34,197 bases of DNA from Nitrospina sp. (GTDB taxonomy: Bacteria > Nitrospinota > Nitrospinia > Nitrospinales > VA-1): positions 4,944-39,140 of the forward strand of contig PBKP01000026.1 of assembly GCA_002721515.1 (NCBI GenBank), written 5' to 3'. The translations under genes and the position numbers were made by a program. This document shows, one piece after another, positions 26,531 to 32,440 of this stretch (position 1 is its first letter; each line of letters begins with the position of its first letter). Below the pieces are notes generated by a model. That model had not been told where the DNA came from. It ran no database searches and saw only the letters and a list, made by a program, of their open reading frames with translations.

Positions 26531-28402
26531 TTAGTTAAAATTATAAACAAAACCGGCATATACATTTCTTCCCGCTACGCTAAAACCACCAACCTCTGTA
26601 TAGTCTTGGTCAAGAAGATTCTCTGCCCTTAAAGTAAGTTTAATTTTTTTACTATATTGATAACTAAAAGCAGTCCGAACTGTAACGAAACCTTCGGTGG
26701 AATTGGTGGCGTTAAAACCTCTGGCAAAACCTCTAGCAAAAATACCTGCAATTGATTCAAGTTTATTGTTCCACCTGTGAGTCAGATTGGCAATCAACTT
26801 TTGTTTTGGACGGCGTGTTCCTGGTTGATTGTGGTCAGATTTTGATTTTTCATCTAAGTAGTGATCGTTCCAGGTATGTCGTATGGATAGAGCAAGATTA
26901 TAGGGTAACTCGAGATCAACTTCTGTTTCGATACCCTGAGAGTAAAACTTCCCAAAGTTTGTTGTAACAAAGGTGCTAGGATGAGACTGAATAAAATTGG
27001 TAGTTAATGATTTAAAGTATGTGATTCCAACCGTTATCTTATCATTCATAAGGCCTTGCCTGACTCCTACTTCAAAACTTTGAGTTTCCTCCGATTTTAA
27101 ATTGGGGTTTGAGTTATAGTCATTAAAGGTGGGTGCTCTAAAACCCTTAGAATATGCTGTATGAAGTTGTGTGTTGGTTTTTAAAAAATTACGTCCTGCT
27201 TCAAACTTATAGGTAGTTACTTCACCAAATATTGAATTGATATCATGTCGAAATCCCCCCGTTAACGTCAAAATATTATTATAATCATAGATACCTTGAA
27301 GGAAGTACGCATTATTGTCAGTGAATTTTTGATAAGCTGAGACAAAATCAGAAAACAAACTATCGGCAGTTCCTTCTTGGCGTTCATACTCACCTCCCCA
27401 AAGTACTGAAAAGTAAGGATGCACTTTCATGTTATTCTCTAAATAAAAGGTATATTGGCGATTAATAAAATGATCGTTTTCCGAGGTATCAATTGTAGCT
27501 GCTTCTTGAAAGTTCATGTTTGGATTTATTTTAAAACTCCACCAGTCGCTAAATTTAGTCTTAAACACTGCGGACAAATAAAAATCGTCGATGGTATTAG
27601 AATTTCTATTATCTGTTCCGCTTCCTTGACCATTGACACTATCTAACTCATCATGTGACTTTGTGTAACGCGTGCTCAACTCAATTTGAGAATCATCATT
27701 AATTTCATAACCAATTTTAGAAATAAAAGTTTTATTTGTATACCTATCTTCTTCTATTCCACCACTAGCCTTATTAAGAGCTGAAATTCCAGAGGTTTTG
27801 AGCAAAGATGCAGATAAGGAATAATCAAACTTATTTATAGAACCTGAACTACGAATTGATTGCTTAGTTGTATTATATGAGCCCCCTTCAAAAGATAGAG
27901 AGTGCTTGGGCGCACCTTTTCCTTTTTTTGTTACGATATTAATGGTTCCACCTACGGCATCACCACCCCACTGAATACTCTGCGGGCCTCTAAGAACCTC
28001 TATTTTTTCTATATTGTCCAGAGTTAGATCACCAAAGTCGTATAGACCTGCAGTATTTGAGTTGACGCGGACACCGTCAATGACGACCAATGTCGATTTT
28101 GATCCTTGTCCTCGCATAAAAATACTGGTTTGTTGACCTTGCCCACCACTTTGCACAACATCCAAACCCAACTCTCCTCGAAGTAAATCTTCTACCGTTT
28201 GGTGCTGTTTTGTTTCAATTTCTTGTTCGTTAAATATAGTTAGAGATCCTGGAAAATTTTTAGTAGTTAATGTGTCACGAGAGGATGTTACTTTGATTAC
28301 TTCTAATTCTTCAATTTCAGCGGCGAATAGGTTCTGTGCGAAAGGTAGGATAAAAAAACTAAAAATAAACAACAGGGCTAAAATAAATTTAATCGTTTTC
28401 AC
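26531..28402 (-). CDS. btuB: TonB-dependent outer-membrane receptor, B12 type (BtuB)
   Basis: BtuB takes up cobalamin across the outer membrane using TonB energy. A signal peptide (about residues 1-28) is followed by a TonB-box-like EVIKVTSS near 35, the plug domain with VEDLLRGELGLDVVQSGG and LRGPQSIQWGGDAVGGTINI, and a long barrel. It ends in YAGFVYNFN; the last residue is Asn rather than the usual Phe. The 623-residue length is normal. The start is GTG, 6 bases after a GAGGGAG ribosome-binding site that ends a cobalamin riboswitch. The riboswitch and neighbouring cobO, btuF, btuD and btuC make corrinoid the likely substrate. Confidence 0.92.
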   Translation of the reverse strand: MKTIKFILALLFIFSFFILPFAQNLFAAEIEELEVIKVTSSRDTLTTKNFPGSLTIFNEQEIETKQHQTVEDLLRGELGLDVVQSGGQGQQTSIFMRGQGSKSTLVVIDGVRVNSNTAGLYDFGDLTLDNIEKIEVLRGPQSIQWGGDAVGGTINIVTKKGKGAPKHSLSFEGGSYNTTKQSIRSSGSINKFDYSLSASLLKTSGISALNKASGGIEEDRYTNKTFISKIGYEINDDSQIELSTRYTKSHDELDSVNGQGSGTDNRNSNTIDDFYLSAVFKTKFSDWWSFKINPNMNFQEAATIDTSENDHFINRQYTFYLENNMKVHPYFSVLWGGEYERQEGTADSLFSDFVSAYQKFTDNNAYFLQGIYDYNNILTLTGGFRHDINSIFGEVTTYKFEAGRNFLKTNTQLHTAYSKGFRAPTFNDYNSNPNLKSEETQSFEVGVRQGLMNDKITVGITYFKSLTTNFIQSHPSTFVTTNFGKFYSQGIETEVDLELPYNLALSIRHTWNDHYLDEKSKSDHNQPGTRRPKQKLIANLTHRWNNKLESIAGIFARGFARGFNATNSTEGFVTVRTAFSYQYSKKIKLTLRAENLLDQDYTEVGGFSVAGRNVYAGFVYNFN

Positions 28403-28423
28403 TTGCTTCTCCCTCGAGATAAA

Positions 28424-28562
28424 TATCCGGCAGGTCTCCTGACTCAGGACTATCTACATTCGTGCCTTCCCATCAACTAAGATAGTGGCATTAAACGAAT
28501 TTCGTATCCATTACAGTTGCGGGGCAGTGTTGGAATTAAACCAAGCTTCCCTTAACCGGACT
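28424..28562 (-). ncRNA. Cobalamin riboswitch upstream of btuB
   Basis: On the minus strand the element begins with CCGG TTAAGGGAA, carries the conserved GCCCCGCAACTGTAA core and GATGGGAAGGC, and ends with GTCAGGAGACCTGCC followed by CCGG. These are the signature blocks of the AdoCbl-type B12 box. The first and last CCGG close the P1 stem. TCTCGAGGGAGA follows within 15 bases; it contains the ribosome-binding site of btuB, so control is probably at translation initiation. It is about 85 percent or more similar by eye to the second copy at 29436-29580. Confidence 0.95.
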
Positions 28563-28580
28563 TAGTATAAAAATTAAATA

Positions 28581-28607
28581 ATTATAACTTGCTACCTATA
28601 CTTGAAA
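28581..28607 (-). promoter_or_regulatory. Possible promoter of the btuB transcript
   Basis: On the minus strand TTTCAA (28602-28607) and TATAAT (28581-28586) are 15 bases apart, shorter than ideal, and end about 20 bases before the riboswitch. It lies just after the cobO stop codon, so btuB may have its own transcript rather than depend on cobO. Confidence 0.4.
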
Positions 28608-28620
28608 TAGATTTCTATTT

Positions 28621-29178
28621 CTAAAATTCAATTCCTTTTTGTGCGGGGATACCTTGTTCCGCAAAAGGATGTTTGATCATTTTCATTTCTGTAACTAGAT
28701 CGGCCATCTCAATCAACTTCTCTGACGCGTTTCTTCCGGTACATACAACATGGGTCATTTCTGGTTTATTTTTTATGGTTTCTAACACTTCATCTTCTGG
28801 GAGAAATTTGTAATCAAGAACGTAATTAATTTCCTCAAAAATAACCATTTCAAAATTACCAGAGTTTAATTTTTCTTTTACTACCTCAAAAGCTTTTCGG
28901 GCGGTTGCCTTGTCTTGTTCGATATTTTCGGTGTCCCAGGTAAATCCGTCTCCCATGGGAACAATTTCGACATAAGGAGACAAACTCTCAAATGATTTTC
29001 TTTCTCCTGCTTTCCAGGGTCCTTTCATAAACTGCATGATAAAAACATTCATTTTATTTCCAGCTGCCCGCATGGCAAGGCCAAAAGCTGCAGTTGATTT
29101 TCCTTTCCCATCGCCTGTATGGACGATAATAAGACCTTTTCTTTTTCTAGGATCAACTTTAGCAGGCTGTTTTCTCAT
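28621..29178 (-). CDS. cobO: Cob(I)yrinic acid a,c-diamide adenosyltransferase (CobO/BtuR)
   Basis: The enzyme attaches the adenosyl group to reduced corrinoids, making the coenzyme form. The P-loop IVHTGDGKGKSTAAFGLAMR lies near residues 18-37, followed by FIMQFMKGPWKAGERKSF, FEEINYVLDYKFL and CTGRNASEKLIEMADLVTEM, all typical of the BtuR/CobA/CobO family. At 185 residues it is full length. No other corrin-ring synthesis gene is present, so it probably serves salvage of imported corrinoid. It follows the riboswitch-led small ORF by about 100 bases, with a 10-bp palindrome between. Confidence 0.93.
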   Translation of the reverse strand: MRKQPAKVDPRKRKGLIIVHTGDGKGKSTAAFGLAMRAAGNKMNVFIMQFMKGPWKAGERKSFESLSPYVEIVPMGDGFTWDTENIEQDKATARKAFEVVKEKLNSGNFEMVIFEEINYVLDYKFLPEDEVLETIKNKPEMTHVVCTGRNASEKLIEMADLVTEMKMIKHPFAEQGIPAQKGIEF

Positions 29179-29226
29179 GATTTACCTGGCAAATGACTAT
29201 TTGTTTAAATAAATAATCTCATTAGG

Positions 29227-29250
29227 ATTATTCTTACGCATAAGAATAAT
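29227..29250. repeat. Perfect 10-bp inverted repeat upstream of cobO
   Basis: ATTATTCTTA (29227-29236) and TAAGAATAAT (29241-29250) flank CGCA. On the minus strand no T-run follows, so it is not a standard terminator. It lies between the small-ORF stop (29275) and the cobO start (29178). It may be an operator for a dimeric repressor or an RNA stem that protects or divides the transcript. Confidence 0.5.
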
Positions 29251-29274
29251 TAATTTTACCTCACAATATTTTTG

Positions 29275-29418
29275 TTAACACTTAACTCGTTCAGATTTAT
29301 TGGACTTATTGTCTTTTGGTGAAAAGGGAAAGAAACTTTGGTTTTTGCTGGTGTGATTAGGCAGGCTTTCAACTGGACCTAATTTGAAAGATAGCGCAGT
29401 ATCTACAATAGCACCCAT
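29275..29418 (-). CDS. 47-residue small ORF directly after a cobalamin riboswitch
   Basis: The ORF starts at ATG 29418 and ends at TAA. It has a GAGGGAG ribosome-binding site in the same position relative to the riboswitch as btuB has, and five more bases to the ATG, which is the main reason to believe in it. The peptide begins MGAIVDTALSFKLGPVES, is Ser, Asn and Lys rich in its second half, and ends in KC. It has no signal peptide, membrane segment or family I recognise, including CbtB. Alternatives are a leader peptide, or a remnant of a gene once driven by this riboswitch. cobO starts about 95 bases further on. Confidence 0.55.
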   Translation of the reverse strand: MGAIVDTALSFKLGPVESLPNHTSKNQSFFPFSPKDNKSNKSERVKC

Positions 29419-29435
29419 TTTTTCTCCCTCGAGAT

Positions 29436-29580
29436 AATTTTCCGGTAGGTCTCCTGACTCAGGGCTATCTAATTTTCGCGCCTTCCCATCTAATAAGACA
29501 GTGGCATACAGCGAATTTCGTACCCAATACAGTTGCGGGGCAGTGCTGGAATTAAACCAAGCTTCCCTTAACCGAAAATT
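29436..29580 (-). ncRNA. Cobalamin riboswitch upstream of the small ORF and cobO
   Basis: On the minus strand the B12-box blocks are all present: GTTAAGGGAA, GCCCCGCAACTGTA, GATGGGAAGGC and GTCAGGAGACCTACC. P1 is long here: AATTTTCGGT pairs with ACCGGAAAATT with one bulge. The riboswitch ends with the same TCTCGAGGGAGA module as the btuB copy, placing a ribosome-binding site directly after P1. It follows btuC by about 125 bases and has its own promoter, so it is not the leader of btuFDC. Confidence 0.95.
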
Positions 29581-29592
29581 TTTGAAAATTAG

Positions 29593-29620
29593 ATTATAAT
29601 TACTTTAGAAATCTAATCAA
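29593..29620 (-). promoter_or_regulatory. Likely promoter of the riboswitch/small-ORF/cobO transcript
   Basis: On the minus strand TTGATT (29615-29620) and TATAAT (29593-29598) are 16 bases apart. Transcription would begin about seven bases later, a few bases before P1 of the riboswitch. Hexamers, spacing and distance all fit a sigma-70-type promoter. Confidence 0.6.
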
Positions 29621-29706: not shown

Positions 29707-30711
29707 CTATAAAGGTCTCTTTCGTTTTAATAGCCAGACAAAAAATGGTCCACCTAACATAGCGGTAATAATGCCTACAGGAATCTCAGTTGGTGCTAAA
29801 AGAGTTCTCGCGAATGTATCGCAAATGACTAGAAAACTAGCACCAAATAAGGTAGATGCTGGAATCAGTATTCTAAGGTCTGGACCAACAAATAATCTCA
29901 CAATATGAGGAACAATCAATCCTACAAAACCTATAGGACCGCAGGTCGCTACCACGGTTCCAGTGATCAGAGATGCCGTGATAAATCCAATTTTTTGTGT
30001 TTTTTCAACATTTACACCGCGACTGGAAGCAGAATGAATTCCTGTGCTAATTAAATTTAAATCCCTGCTCACAAATAACAAGATTAATATTCCAATTGAA
30101 ACAATCGGAAATAAAGTAAGAATTGTGTCGTAATTAGTGATATCCAATCCACCCATTAGCCAGCGTATAATTGTGAATGACTGGCTCAAGCTTGCTAAAT
30201 AATGGATAAACATAACTAGTGAAGCGAAAAAGAAATTAGCTGTTACACCCGCTAAAAGCAATATCCCTGTAGGAAACTCTCCATGTCTGGTACGAACTAG
30301 ATTGAAAACCAGTAAAATAGCACCAAGTGAACCCATGAATGCAAACAAGGAAATAACCGGAAAACCTAGGAGGGTAAAATTTAAATTCAACGCAATTGCA
30401 ATAACAGCTCCCAATGCCGCGCCACTTGAAACACCCAGGGTAAAAGGAGCAGCCAGATCATTTCTCAATAAAGCCTGTAAAACAGCTCCTGCTACTGATA
30501 AAGCAGCACCTGCGATAGCTCCAAGAAGAATTCTGGGTAGTCTTACCTGAAATAAAATACTGGCATCGATATTGTTAGAATTGTTTAGAGTCGTTGAAAA
30601 GGCGCGTGTCAGACTGATATCCGTGGAGCCTATAAGCGGGGCAATTAAAAGGGTTGCCAATAAGACCAAAAAAAATACTGAAAGTGTCTTTATATAGGAC
30701 ATTATTTTCAT
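29707..30711 (-). CDS. btuC: Corrinoid-type ABC transporter permease (BtuC/FecCD family)
   Basis: The 334-residue protein has the ten-helix FecCD layout, with RLPRILLGAIAGAALSVAGAVLQALLRNDLA near residues 55-85 split by helix boundaries, the GVSSGAALGA segment, CGPIGFVGLIVPHIVR near 255-270, and a closing ARTLLAPTEIPVGIITAMLGGPFF. These are hallmark motifs of siderophore/B12 permeases. The gene is 11 bases after btuD. Iron-siderophore systems share this fold, but cobO, btuB and two B12 riboswitches next door make corrinoid the likely cargo. Confidence 0.9.
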   Translation of the reverse strand: MKIMSYIKTLSVFFLVLLATLLIAPLIGSTDISLTRAFSTTLNNSNNIDASILFQVRLPRILLGAIAGAALSVAGAVLQALLRNDLAAPFTLGVSSGAALGAVIAIALNLNFTLLGFPVISLFAFMGSLGAILLVFNLVRTRHGEFPTGILLLAGVTANFFFASLVMFIHYLASLSQSFTIIRWLMGGLDITNYDTILTLFPIVSIGILILLFVSRDLNLISTGIHSASSRGVNVEKTQKIGFITASLITGTVVATCGPIGFVGLIVPHIVRLFVGPDLRILIPASTLFGASFLVICDTFARTLLAPTEIPVGIITAMLGGPFFVWLLKRKRPL

Positions 30712-30722
30712 ATAGAAATATC

Positions 30723-31505
30723 CTATTTGCCGATCGTAGGGTGGATCAGGGTGTGACCATTTTTAGAATAGAGATCCAGTTCTATCCCATAAACCTCCTC
30801 AAGAATGTCTTTTTGAAGCACCTTTAGGGGAGTACCATCGCTAACAATTTTTCCATCGTTTAAAAGAATAATTCGATTGCAAAACCGAGAGGCAAGGTTT
30901 AAATCATGCATGGCCACGACCAGTGTCATTTTATGGTTTGTATTGAGATCTTTGAGAATGCTCATTATTTCAATTTGATATTTTAAATCCAATGCTGAGG
31001 TAGGTTCATCGAGAAGTAATAATTCCGGATTCTGTGCCAGGGCACTGGCAATCATTACACGTTGTTTTTCCCCTTCACTGATTTCATTAAAAAGTCGGTC
31101 GGAAAAATGGGAAGTCATGGTTGTTTGCATGGCACGTTGGCTGATTTTGAAATCCTCGTGACTTTCAAACGATAAAGGAGAAAGATAAGGATGGCGTCCC
31201 ATCAAAACAACTTCAGAAACCTTAAAAGGGAAAACCATCGGATGACCTTGAGGGATCCAGGAAACCGATTGGGCAAAATTCTTTTTGTTGATATTCCTAG
31301 TTTCGGATCCTTTGAACTTTATGCTGCCCGAATCTGGTTTAATAATCGCACTCATTACTTTTAACAGTGTTGATTTTCCTGAGCCATTAGGTCCTATTAG
31401 CCCAATAAAATCATTCTCCTGAATAAAAACTGATAAATCATTTAGAACAGGCTTAATGTTGTAGGTAAAAGAAATATTTTCTAACTCCATTTTTAAAGGT
31501 GTCAT
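30723..31505 (-). CDS. btuD: Corrinoid-type ABC transporter ATPase (BtuD-like)
   Basis: The ATPase drives corrinoid import by BtuC. Walker A is GPNGSGKST (near 37-45), the signature is ISEGEKQRV (a variant of LSGGQ), Walker B is LLLLDEPTSALD, and the switch His is in VVAMHDLNLA. At 260 residues it is normal for the FecE/BtuD group. The start overlaps the btuF stop by ATGA, so btuF and btuD are coupled. Confidence 0.92.
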   Translation of the reverse strand: MTPLKMELENISFTYNIKPVLNDLSVFIQENDFIGLIGPNGSGKSTLLKVMSAIIKPDSGSIKFKGSETRNINKKNFAQSVSWIPQGHPMVFPFKVSEVVLMGRHPYLSPLSFESHEDFKISQRAMQTTMTSHFSDRLFNEISEGEKQRVMIASALAQNPELLLLDEPTSALDLKYQIEIMSILKDLNTNHKMTLVVAMHDLNLASRFCNRIILLNDGKIVSDGTPLKVLQKDILEEVYGIELDLYSKNGHTLIHPTIGK

Positions 31506-32440
31506 GGTTTTGCAGTACCTGGAGGTGGTGTTTGTTTAATTAGTGGAACCGACAAATCTGTATGAATTACTTTTGCAAAACTTTCTAAAATTTTCACCAG
31601 ACGTGGTCCGGGAATTAATATATAATCTGCGCCAATAAAATGGATCCTTTTATTTTTGACTGCTTGGATTGTGGGAAAACGATTCCATTGTTCAACTCTA
31701 TAATCTATTTTTTTTTGAGATAAATTGGACTTTGGTCCTGCCTCTATAATGATCTCGGGTGATTGTTCAATAATATATTCTTTCGATAGCTTGGGATATT
31801 GGGCTTTTGAGTTTGTTAAAATATTCTTTCCGCCGGAAAGCACAAGTAATTCATTTAAAAATGTTCCAGGGCCTACCGCATATAAATCGCGACCAGGATT
31901 ACTGCTGTCGCCAAGAAGCAACAAAACTTTTTTTTTTGGTCGTCCCATAAGCCCTAGTTTGTAGTTATTGATTTTATTTTTTAAAAACGATAGAAGATTT
32001 TTGGCGGTCTTCTGACAATTGAGCTCTTTACCCAGGCGATTAATCGATTCAAAAATATCTGATATTGTTCGGACATTAATTGATAATGTTGGAATACCAA
32101 GGCTTTTAAAATTATTTTTCATCTTTTCACTATCTGTTTGCTGAATTATCAGATCAGGAGTAAGAGATATTATTGTTTCTATATCAGGGTTTAACACTCC
32201 CCCAATACTAGGCAAAAGACAAGCTTCTTCTGGGTAAGAACAAAAGTCTGTTACGGCTACAATGCGCTCTTTTAGTCCTAGCTCGAAAAGTATTTCCGTA
32301 ATAGAAGGCGAAGTTGAAATTATTCTTTGAGGCTGATGCTTAAATCTACTGCTTGCCTCCAAGGAATTTAAAAAGCCTGAATATAAGGAAACTAGGAAAA
32401 CAAATGAAGTGAAAAAATATTTAATAAAAATTTTATTCAT
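31502..32440 (-). CDS. btuF: Periplasmic corrinoid-binding protein (BtuF-like)
   Basis: A signal peptide (about residues 1-30, with LEASS at its end) precedes a two-lobe cluster A-II binding protein. Family features are RIISTSPSITEILFELGL, VTDFCSYPEEA, ETIISLTPDLII, SLGIPTLSI, and EQSPEIIIEAG. BtuF delivers corrinoid to BtuCD. The length of 312 residues is normal. No riboswitch precedes it; its start is 12 bases after the esterase gene, so the importer may depend on an upstream promoter beyond the window. Confidence 0.9.
   Translation of the reverse strand: MNKIFIKYFFTSFVFLVSLYSGFLNSLEASSRFKHQPQRIISTSPSITEILFELGLKERIVAVTDFCSYPEEACLLPSIGGVLNPDIETIISLTPDLIIQQTDSEKMKNNFKSLGIPTLSINVRTISDIFESINRLGKELNCQKTAKNLLSFLKNKINNYKLGLMGRPKKKVLLLLGDSSNPGRDLYAVGPGTFLNELLVLSGGKNILTNSKAQYPKLSKEYIIEQSPEIIIEAGPKSNLSQKKIDYRVEQWNRFPTIQAVKNKRIHFIGADYILIPGPRLVKILESFAKVIHTDLSVPLIKQTPPPGTAKP

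Follow-up and report, generated by a model that had tools for sequence, protein, structure and literature searches.

We propose that the 47-codon open reading frame (ORF) found under a cobalamin riboswitch in this 34,197-nucleotide stretch of DNA (hereafter the window) arose by chance behind an inherited start site. The riboswitch itself would be what is left of the control of a collapsed operon, with the corrinoid adenosyltransferase gene cobO as its probable target and a peptide that has no function. For this reading as a whole we estimate a probability of about 0.55. The riboswitch is real and well placed and the frame behind it is an orphan; together they are possibly a regulatory relay and quite possibly a scar. 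The sequence-only reading that drew attention to the locus was right about its basic layout, a 47-residue ORF ending in KC under a cobalamin riboswitch (Table 1).

The genome holding the window (G000) is a draft of 51 contigs that is 70.5% complete. On its minus strand btuF, btuD and btuC are followed by riboswitch A, the ORF, a 96-nt spacer, cobO, riboswitch B and btuB. Gene names at this locus stand for Pfam matches read in their operon context.

Table 1. Features of the riboswitch A–cobO locus, in order of transcription (nucleotide positions of the window)
Feature	Position	Strand	Basis or remark
btuF-like periplasmic binding protein	31502-32440	-	PF01497
btuD-like ABC ATPase	30723-31505	-	PF00005
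btuC-like FecCD permease	29707-30711	-	PF01032, E 6e-90; upstream neighbour fixing the ancestral position
Promoter-like TTGATT-16-TATAAT, just upstream of riboswitch A	29593-29620	-	consensus match only
Possible cobQ 3′ relic	29589-29612	-	in-frame ISKVIII-stop, compared with VSKIIKI-stop of G002 cobQ
Riboswitch A, complete cobalamin aptamer of the translational btuB type, located behind btuC, its ancestral place	29427-29591	-	RF00174
SD-sequestering hairpin TCTC-gagg-GAGA	29423-29434	-	loop and 3′ arm form the ORF ribosome-binding site
47-codon ORF, ATG start, TAA stop, peptide ending in KC	29275-29418	-	ORF list; G000 only
ORF–cobO spacer, 96 nt, with an AT-rich palindrome at 29227-29250	29179-29274	-	sequence
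cobO/btuR, corrinoid adenosyltransferase	28621-29178	-	PF02572, E 1.1e-67
Riboswitch B, second btuB-type cobalamin riboswitch	28412-28607	-	RF00174, 92.4 bits
btuB-like TonB-dependent receptor	26531-28402	-	PF00593, PF07715

Riboswitch A is a full match to the RF00174 covariance model (model positions 1-189, 100.2 bits, E 3.8e-24, with a threshold of 31.5) and it outscores riboswitch B. Both riboswitches carry the module TCTCGAGGGAGA at their 3′ end, and the start codon begins at +5 for the ORF and at +6 for btuB, counted from the last base of the hairpin. The shared GAGGGAG module and the similar spacing, which had been noticed from the letters of the window, are therefore confirmed. The module is predicted to fold as a TCTC-gagg-GAGA hairpin that encloses the Shine–Dalgarno (SD) sequence.

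We compared 56 cobalamin riboswitches from 40 of the 46 genomes of the family, all of them oriented beforehand. The module CTCGAGGGAG is found in eight of these and in two genera only: twice in G000 and once each in G002, G008, G025, G028, G031 and G039. All six copies outside G000 directly precede a btuB-like gene (in G028 the BtuB similarity is weak, E 1e-11), whereas riboswitch A is followed by the orphan ORF and cobO. In its aptamer family, its TCTCGAGGGAGA hairpin and its start-codon spacing, riboswitch A is like the other btuB-type RF00174 riboswitches of the Nitrospinaceae. From the 56 we hand-picked 21 riboswitches of this type, namely those that closely precede a btuB match, plus riboswitch A; those before other or more distant TonB-receptor-like genes were left out (G033:16996, G037, G015:100508, G008:C349:1864, G032 and G027:392). 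An SD hairpin of one form or another is present in 21/21, with the start codon at +5 to +9 from the hairpin end. The TCTC/GAGA form occurs in eight, and the other 13 have CCTT-loop-AAGG at the same place, which implies that both arms changed together. These figures come from a pattern count that covers all 21; a hairpin search settled on a different helix for four of them (G031, G039, G025 and G018:96450) and returned no helix for G022:17103. RNA folding of the riboswitch 3′ ends gave z-scores of -0.16 and +0.69. Modelled in this way, riboswitch A appears to have a translational expression platform with a sequestered SD sequence.

The ribosome-binding site belongs to the riboswitch, and so its retention says little about the peptide. 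It had been argued that a retained site speaks against simple decay, but this argument is weak, as btuB-type riboswitches across the family have the site as part of their 3′ hairpin. The case cautions against reading an intact ribosome-binding site under a translational riboswitch as a sign that the peptide is functional; the site is a component of the RNA device.

Chance could hardly produce the riboswitch together with its ribosome-binding hairpin; a coding sequence like the ORF, by contrast, does not stand far above chance. Among 100 genomes, only G000 itself gave a convincing match to the peptide, and 24 others gave matches at chance level, with best E values per genome of 0.06-1.5. A comparison of the ORF DNA with the 45 other genomes of the family returned short chance stretches only (best E 0.0016 over 25 bases). 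A scan of a genome collection of 84,980 species produced 191 pattern stretches and no relative of the ORF; viral contigs gave 0/21, and a search of plasmids gave no homologue. Pfam, NCBIfam and PHROGs hold no family for the peptide up to an E value of 10.

Codon usage points the same way. With the codon usage of 33 genes of the window as reference, the ORF is neutral (-0.013 per codon). Real 46-codon windows have a mean of 0.149 (n=197), with 5% of them below the ORF, and off-frame windows have a mean of -0.154 (n=985), with 15% reaching its score or more; its rank among window ORFs of 40-60 codons is 21st of 81. The open length is only mildly unusual: when the ORF was dinucleotide-shuffled together with the spacer, 47 codons remained open in 1.9% of cases, and when its body was shuffled without the spacer, in 5.2%. 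RNA folding found no structure in the ORF (z +1.82). A functional small protein for corrinoid handling, new to the lineage, had been put forward as one explanation. The intact ribosome-binding site and riboswitch would suit such a protein, but it is left with no homologue in the 99 other genomes (best E 0.06), the genome collection or plasmids, with no protein family, and with a codon score below that of 95% of the 197 real gene windows. We consider this explanation very unlikely. These comparisons give no support to a conserved small corrinoid protein, and the 47-residue peptide most likely has no function.

The operons of related genomes suggest how the frame came to be where it is. The gene order shared by G002 and G008 is btuC-cobQ-riboswitch-btuB-cobN-...-cobB-...-cobO, with a similar one in G031 (gene names in the relatives are based on sequence resemblance read by eye and on similarity searches). 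The riboswitch and cobO are 8.3-9.1 kb apart in these three genomes, compared with 249 nt, on the same strand, in G000. Across the family we found 24 cobO loci. Besides G000, 15 have a same-strand upstream riboswitch on the contig, at a distance of 1,975-15,655 nt, and eight have no upstream riboswitch on the contig, three of these eight having less than 2 kb of contig upstream. G000 alone has a close riboswitch, and none of the relatives examined has one directly before cobO. From the gene order of the relatives we infer that the B12 operon collapsed in G000 and lost the genes that had separated the riboswitch from cobO. In the 70.5% of the genome that is assembled, CobN was not found, and neither was a full CobQ or CobB, with weak partial GATase_3 matches only. 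This result, obtained on an incomplete genome, would fit the B12 auxotrophy that passages of PMC8026999 report for Nitrospinae. Our literature search found no paper on a cobalamin riboswitch together with 'Nitrospin'.

A possible 8-codon tail of cobQ lies upstream of riboswitch A. Its in-frame ISKVIII-stop and the VSKIIKI-stop that ends G002 cobQ align and are at a nearly equal distance from the riboswitch. The match is short, eight codons with the stop included, and by score alone it is modest: 95 of 20,000 shuffles reach the same score, as do 14 of 6,210 stretches of the window. Because of this cobQ-like tail, and because it lies downstream of btuC as in the relatives, riboswitch A is most likely the original copy, with riboswitch B and btuB as a copy or a move. 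In sequence, riboswitch A is about equally close to the G002 riboswitch (135/149 positions identical) and to riboswitch B (133/148). The proposal that the ORF is the remnant of a lost gene thus holds in part: a B12 operon has collapsed here and may have left a cobQ tail, but no alignment of the ORF was obtained with btuB or with the region upstream of cobO in relatives. We tried a btuB pseudogene and rejected it, the alignment of the ORF to four btuB genes being no better than shuffles (34-98% of shuffles scored as high), and comparisons with the sequence upstream of cobO and with the whole operons of relatives showed no similarity.

The resemblance between the two riboswitches raises the question of an assembly artefact, in which similar riboswitches caused a wrong join and the arrangement is not real. 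A fragmented, incomplete draft and two repeats with 133/148 identical positions would make such an error conceivable, but 15/148 aligned positions differ, and the ORF, spacer and cobO are without a further copy of the repeat. We find this explanation highly improbable.

Two minor observations concern the neighbouring genes. The BtuB of G000 is 39-41% identical to that of G002, G004 and G008, while cobO is ~90% identical, so that the btuB under the same kind of riboswitch appears to have been either replaced or very fast changing. In addition, a record titled Dehalococcoidia (L125, PAUC01000027.1) contains a cobO 77% identical to that of G000, and its neighbours resemble those of a Nitrospina record (L126); it is probably a mislabelled bin.

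Riboswitch A looks maintained when this one genome is compared with relatives in which btuB is the gene under the riboswitch. Its identity to the G002 riboswitch, which precedes btuB, is 90.6%, compared with ~80% for the cobO DNA of the same two genomes, and blastn, tblastx and shuffled local alignment found no alignable counterpart of the ORF and spacer in relatives. This suggests that selection is acting on riboswitch A, and the nearest gene that remains to be selected for would be cobO. The alternative is that riboswitch and ORF are both leftovers, that expression of cobO begins at its own start and is not controlled by B12, and that changes in the ORF would cost nothing. An ORF that is neither conserved nor other than neutral in codon usage, a 96-nt gap to cobO and an arrangement seen in G000 alone of the 24 family cobO loci are what such leftovers would look like. 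Set against this is a riboswitch that scores above riboswitch B (100.2 and 92.4 bits) and is better conserved than the cobO DNA, with unalignable sequence behind it, and we hold the alternative to be somewhat unlikely. The good promoter that had been noted upstream of the riboswitch is present as a TTGATT-16-TATAAT match, but its significance did not survive a regional count, which gave four promoter-like matches compared with 4.8 in shuffles (sd 2.1), i.e. not above chance.

Returning to the collapsed operon, we hypothesize that riboswitch A was formerly the translational OFF switch of a larger operon, riboswitch-btuB-cobN-...-cobO. As the gene order of the relatives suggests, the genes between riboswitch A and cobO would have been lost in the G000 lineage, while the btuB-type hairpin and the position of the start codon stayed, and the sequence left behind them may have become the 47-codon frame. 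The conserved hairpin implies that B12 binding would close it and block translation of the ORF. The real target is probably cobO, since it lies 249 nt downstream on the same strand and no terminator-like site was found in between. With 96 nt between the ORF stop and cobO, stop–start coupling is unlikely, and B12 would then act through the level of cobO mRNA: an untranslated ORF could leave the RNA accessible to Rho or to nucleases, on the model of E. coli btuB, and cobO mRNA would fall. Since it looks maintained, riboswitch A probably still acts on cobO, perhaps with translation of the ORF as a relay like that described for the ppe2 uORF of M. tuberculosis, and a leader controlling cobO is a possible role for the ORF.

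A stretch with an excess of C over G is a hallmark of Rho sites. The ORF contains such a C-rich, G-poor stretch at 29366-29289 (C minus G of 16), which lies in the top 0.6% of 78-nt windows. An equal C-over-G value is found in 5-10% of 249-nt window segments and in 17/55 riboswitch leaders of the family (55 of the 56 riboswitches were counted, one being too near a contig end), and as evidence for a Rho site the signal is weak. The rho gene was not found in G000, at 70.5% completeness, and is present at full score in 8/8 other genomes of the genus; it is probably missing from the incomplete assembly.

We offer only tentatively the idea that the chance frame was recruited as a relay after the operon collapsed, so that its B12-switched translation decides whether cobO mRNA survives. 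If the relay is true, a translational riboswitch would have been re-targeted after gene loss via an otherwise meaningless frame, in B12-dependent marine nitrite oxidisers, and a new device of upstream ORF (uORF) and riboswitch would have been born from gene loss.

There are useful parallels in known systems. In M. tuberculosis, according to passages of PMC11260477, a B12 riboswitch controls a uORF (uPPE2) whose translation is needed for ppe2; the two overlap at AUGA and are linked mainly by termination-reinitiation, and translation of uPPE2 was shown by experiment. As described there, the ppe2 (and metE) riboswitch is, like the predicted device in G000, a translational B12 OFF switch with an SD hairpin and a short ORF before a cobalamin-related operon. 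In G000, too, a short ORF with an SD sequence lies under the riboswitch and upstream of a putative regulated gene. Unlike ppe2, there is no AUGA overlap, as the ORF ends at 29275 and cobO starts at 29178, with 96 nt between them, and translation is predicted from sequence. The second parallel is the AdoCbl riboswitch of E. coli btuB, for which sections of PMC11162775 describe an SD sequence sequestered by a stem-loop and the triggering of Rho-dependent termination. The SD-sequestering stem-loop is common to both; in G000, unlike E. coli, the translated frame would be an orphan ORF before cobO, and the action of Rho is inferred.

Short ORFs under btuB-type riboswitches also appear, as predicted frames, elsewhere in the family. 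Two genomes of genus g3, G018 (L198, G018:C37:96450-96869, minus) and G022 (L202, G022:C71:16831-17267), have tandem btuB-type riboswitches before btuB. In each, the first riboswitch carries an SD hairpin, and the ATG behind it opens a mini-ORF (MTHKAVTAS) of 11 codons in G018 and 9 codons in G022. Between the two genomes the first 27 nt of the mini-ORF are 27/27 identical, as are 165/186 positions of the aptamer, 18/39 of the spacer after the mini-ORF and 58/94 aligned columns of the 5′ part of btuB. The mini-ORF sequence was found in 2/64 genomes of the order. Unlike this tandem case, the window ORF has no second riboswitch and btuB directly behind it, and the sequences are unrelated. If the relay reading is correct, the 9-codon ORF under the tandem riboswitches of genus g3 would count as an independent second example in the family. 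Other tandem riboswitches were considered as parallels: L233 and L234 were dropped for a stem and T run that by eye resemble an intrinsic terminator, and L235 and L236 have gaps of 271 and 2250 nt and no countable SD-hairpin ORF.

These systems bear on a stronger form of the relay that overlaps with our main reading, namely that the length or sequence of the ORF is kept by selection so that B12 control reaches cobO, by way of Rho access, mRNA stability or reinitiation. Such selection would account for the intact SD hairpin and start codon and for the C-rich stretch at 29366-29289, and it can draw on the M. tuberculosis precedent (passages of PMC11260477) and on the identical initial 27 nt under the first tandem riboswitch of G018 and G022. 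But the arrangement is seen in a single genome, the C-rich signal is not unusual at the level of segments, and the stop–start overlap of ppe2 is absent at cobO. We regard this stronger form as possible but doubtful.

The spacer between the ORF and cobO has some features of its own. The AT-rich palindrome, ATTATTCTTA-TGCG-TAAGAATAAT, is present in a single copy in G000, and a search at up to 3 mismatches found it in none of the 8 other genomes of the genus. A second tiny frame (MRKNNPNEIIYLNK, 29197-29241, minus) starts inside the palindrome and shares its frame with the ORF as well as with cobO. Read by eye, three in-frame stops separate the ORF from cobO, the ORF's own stop included.
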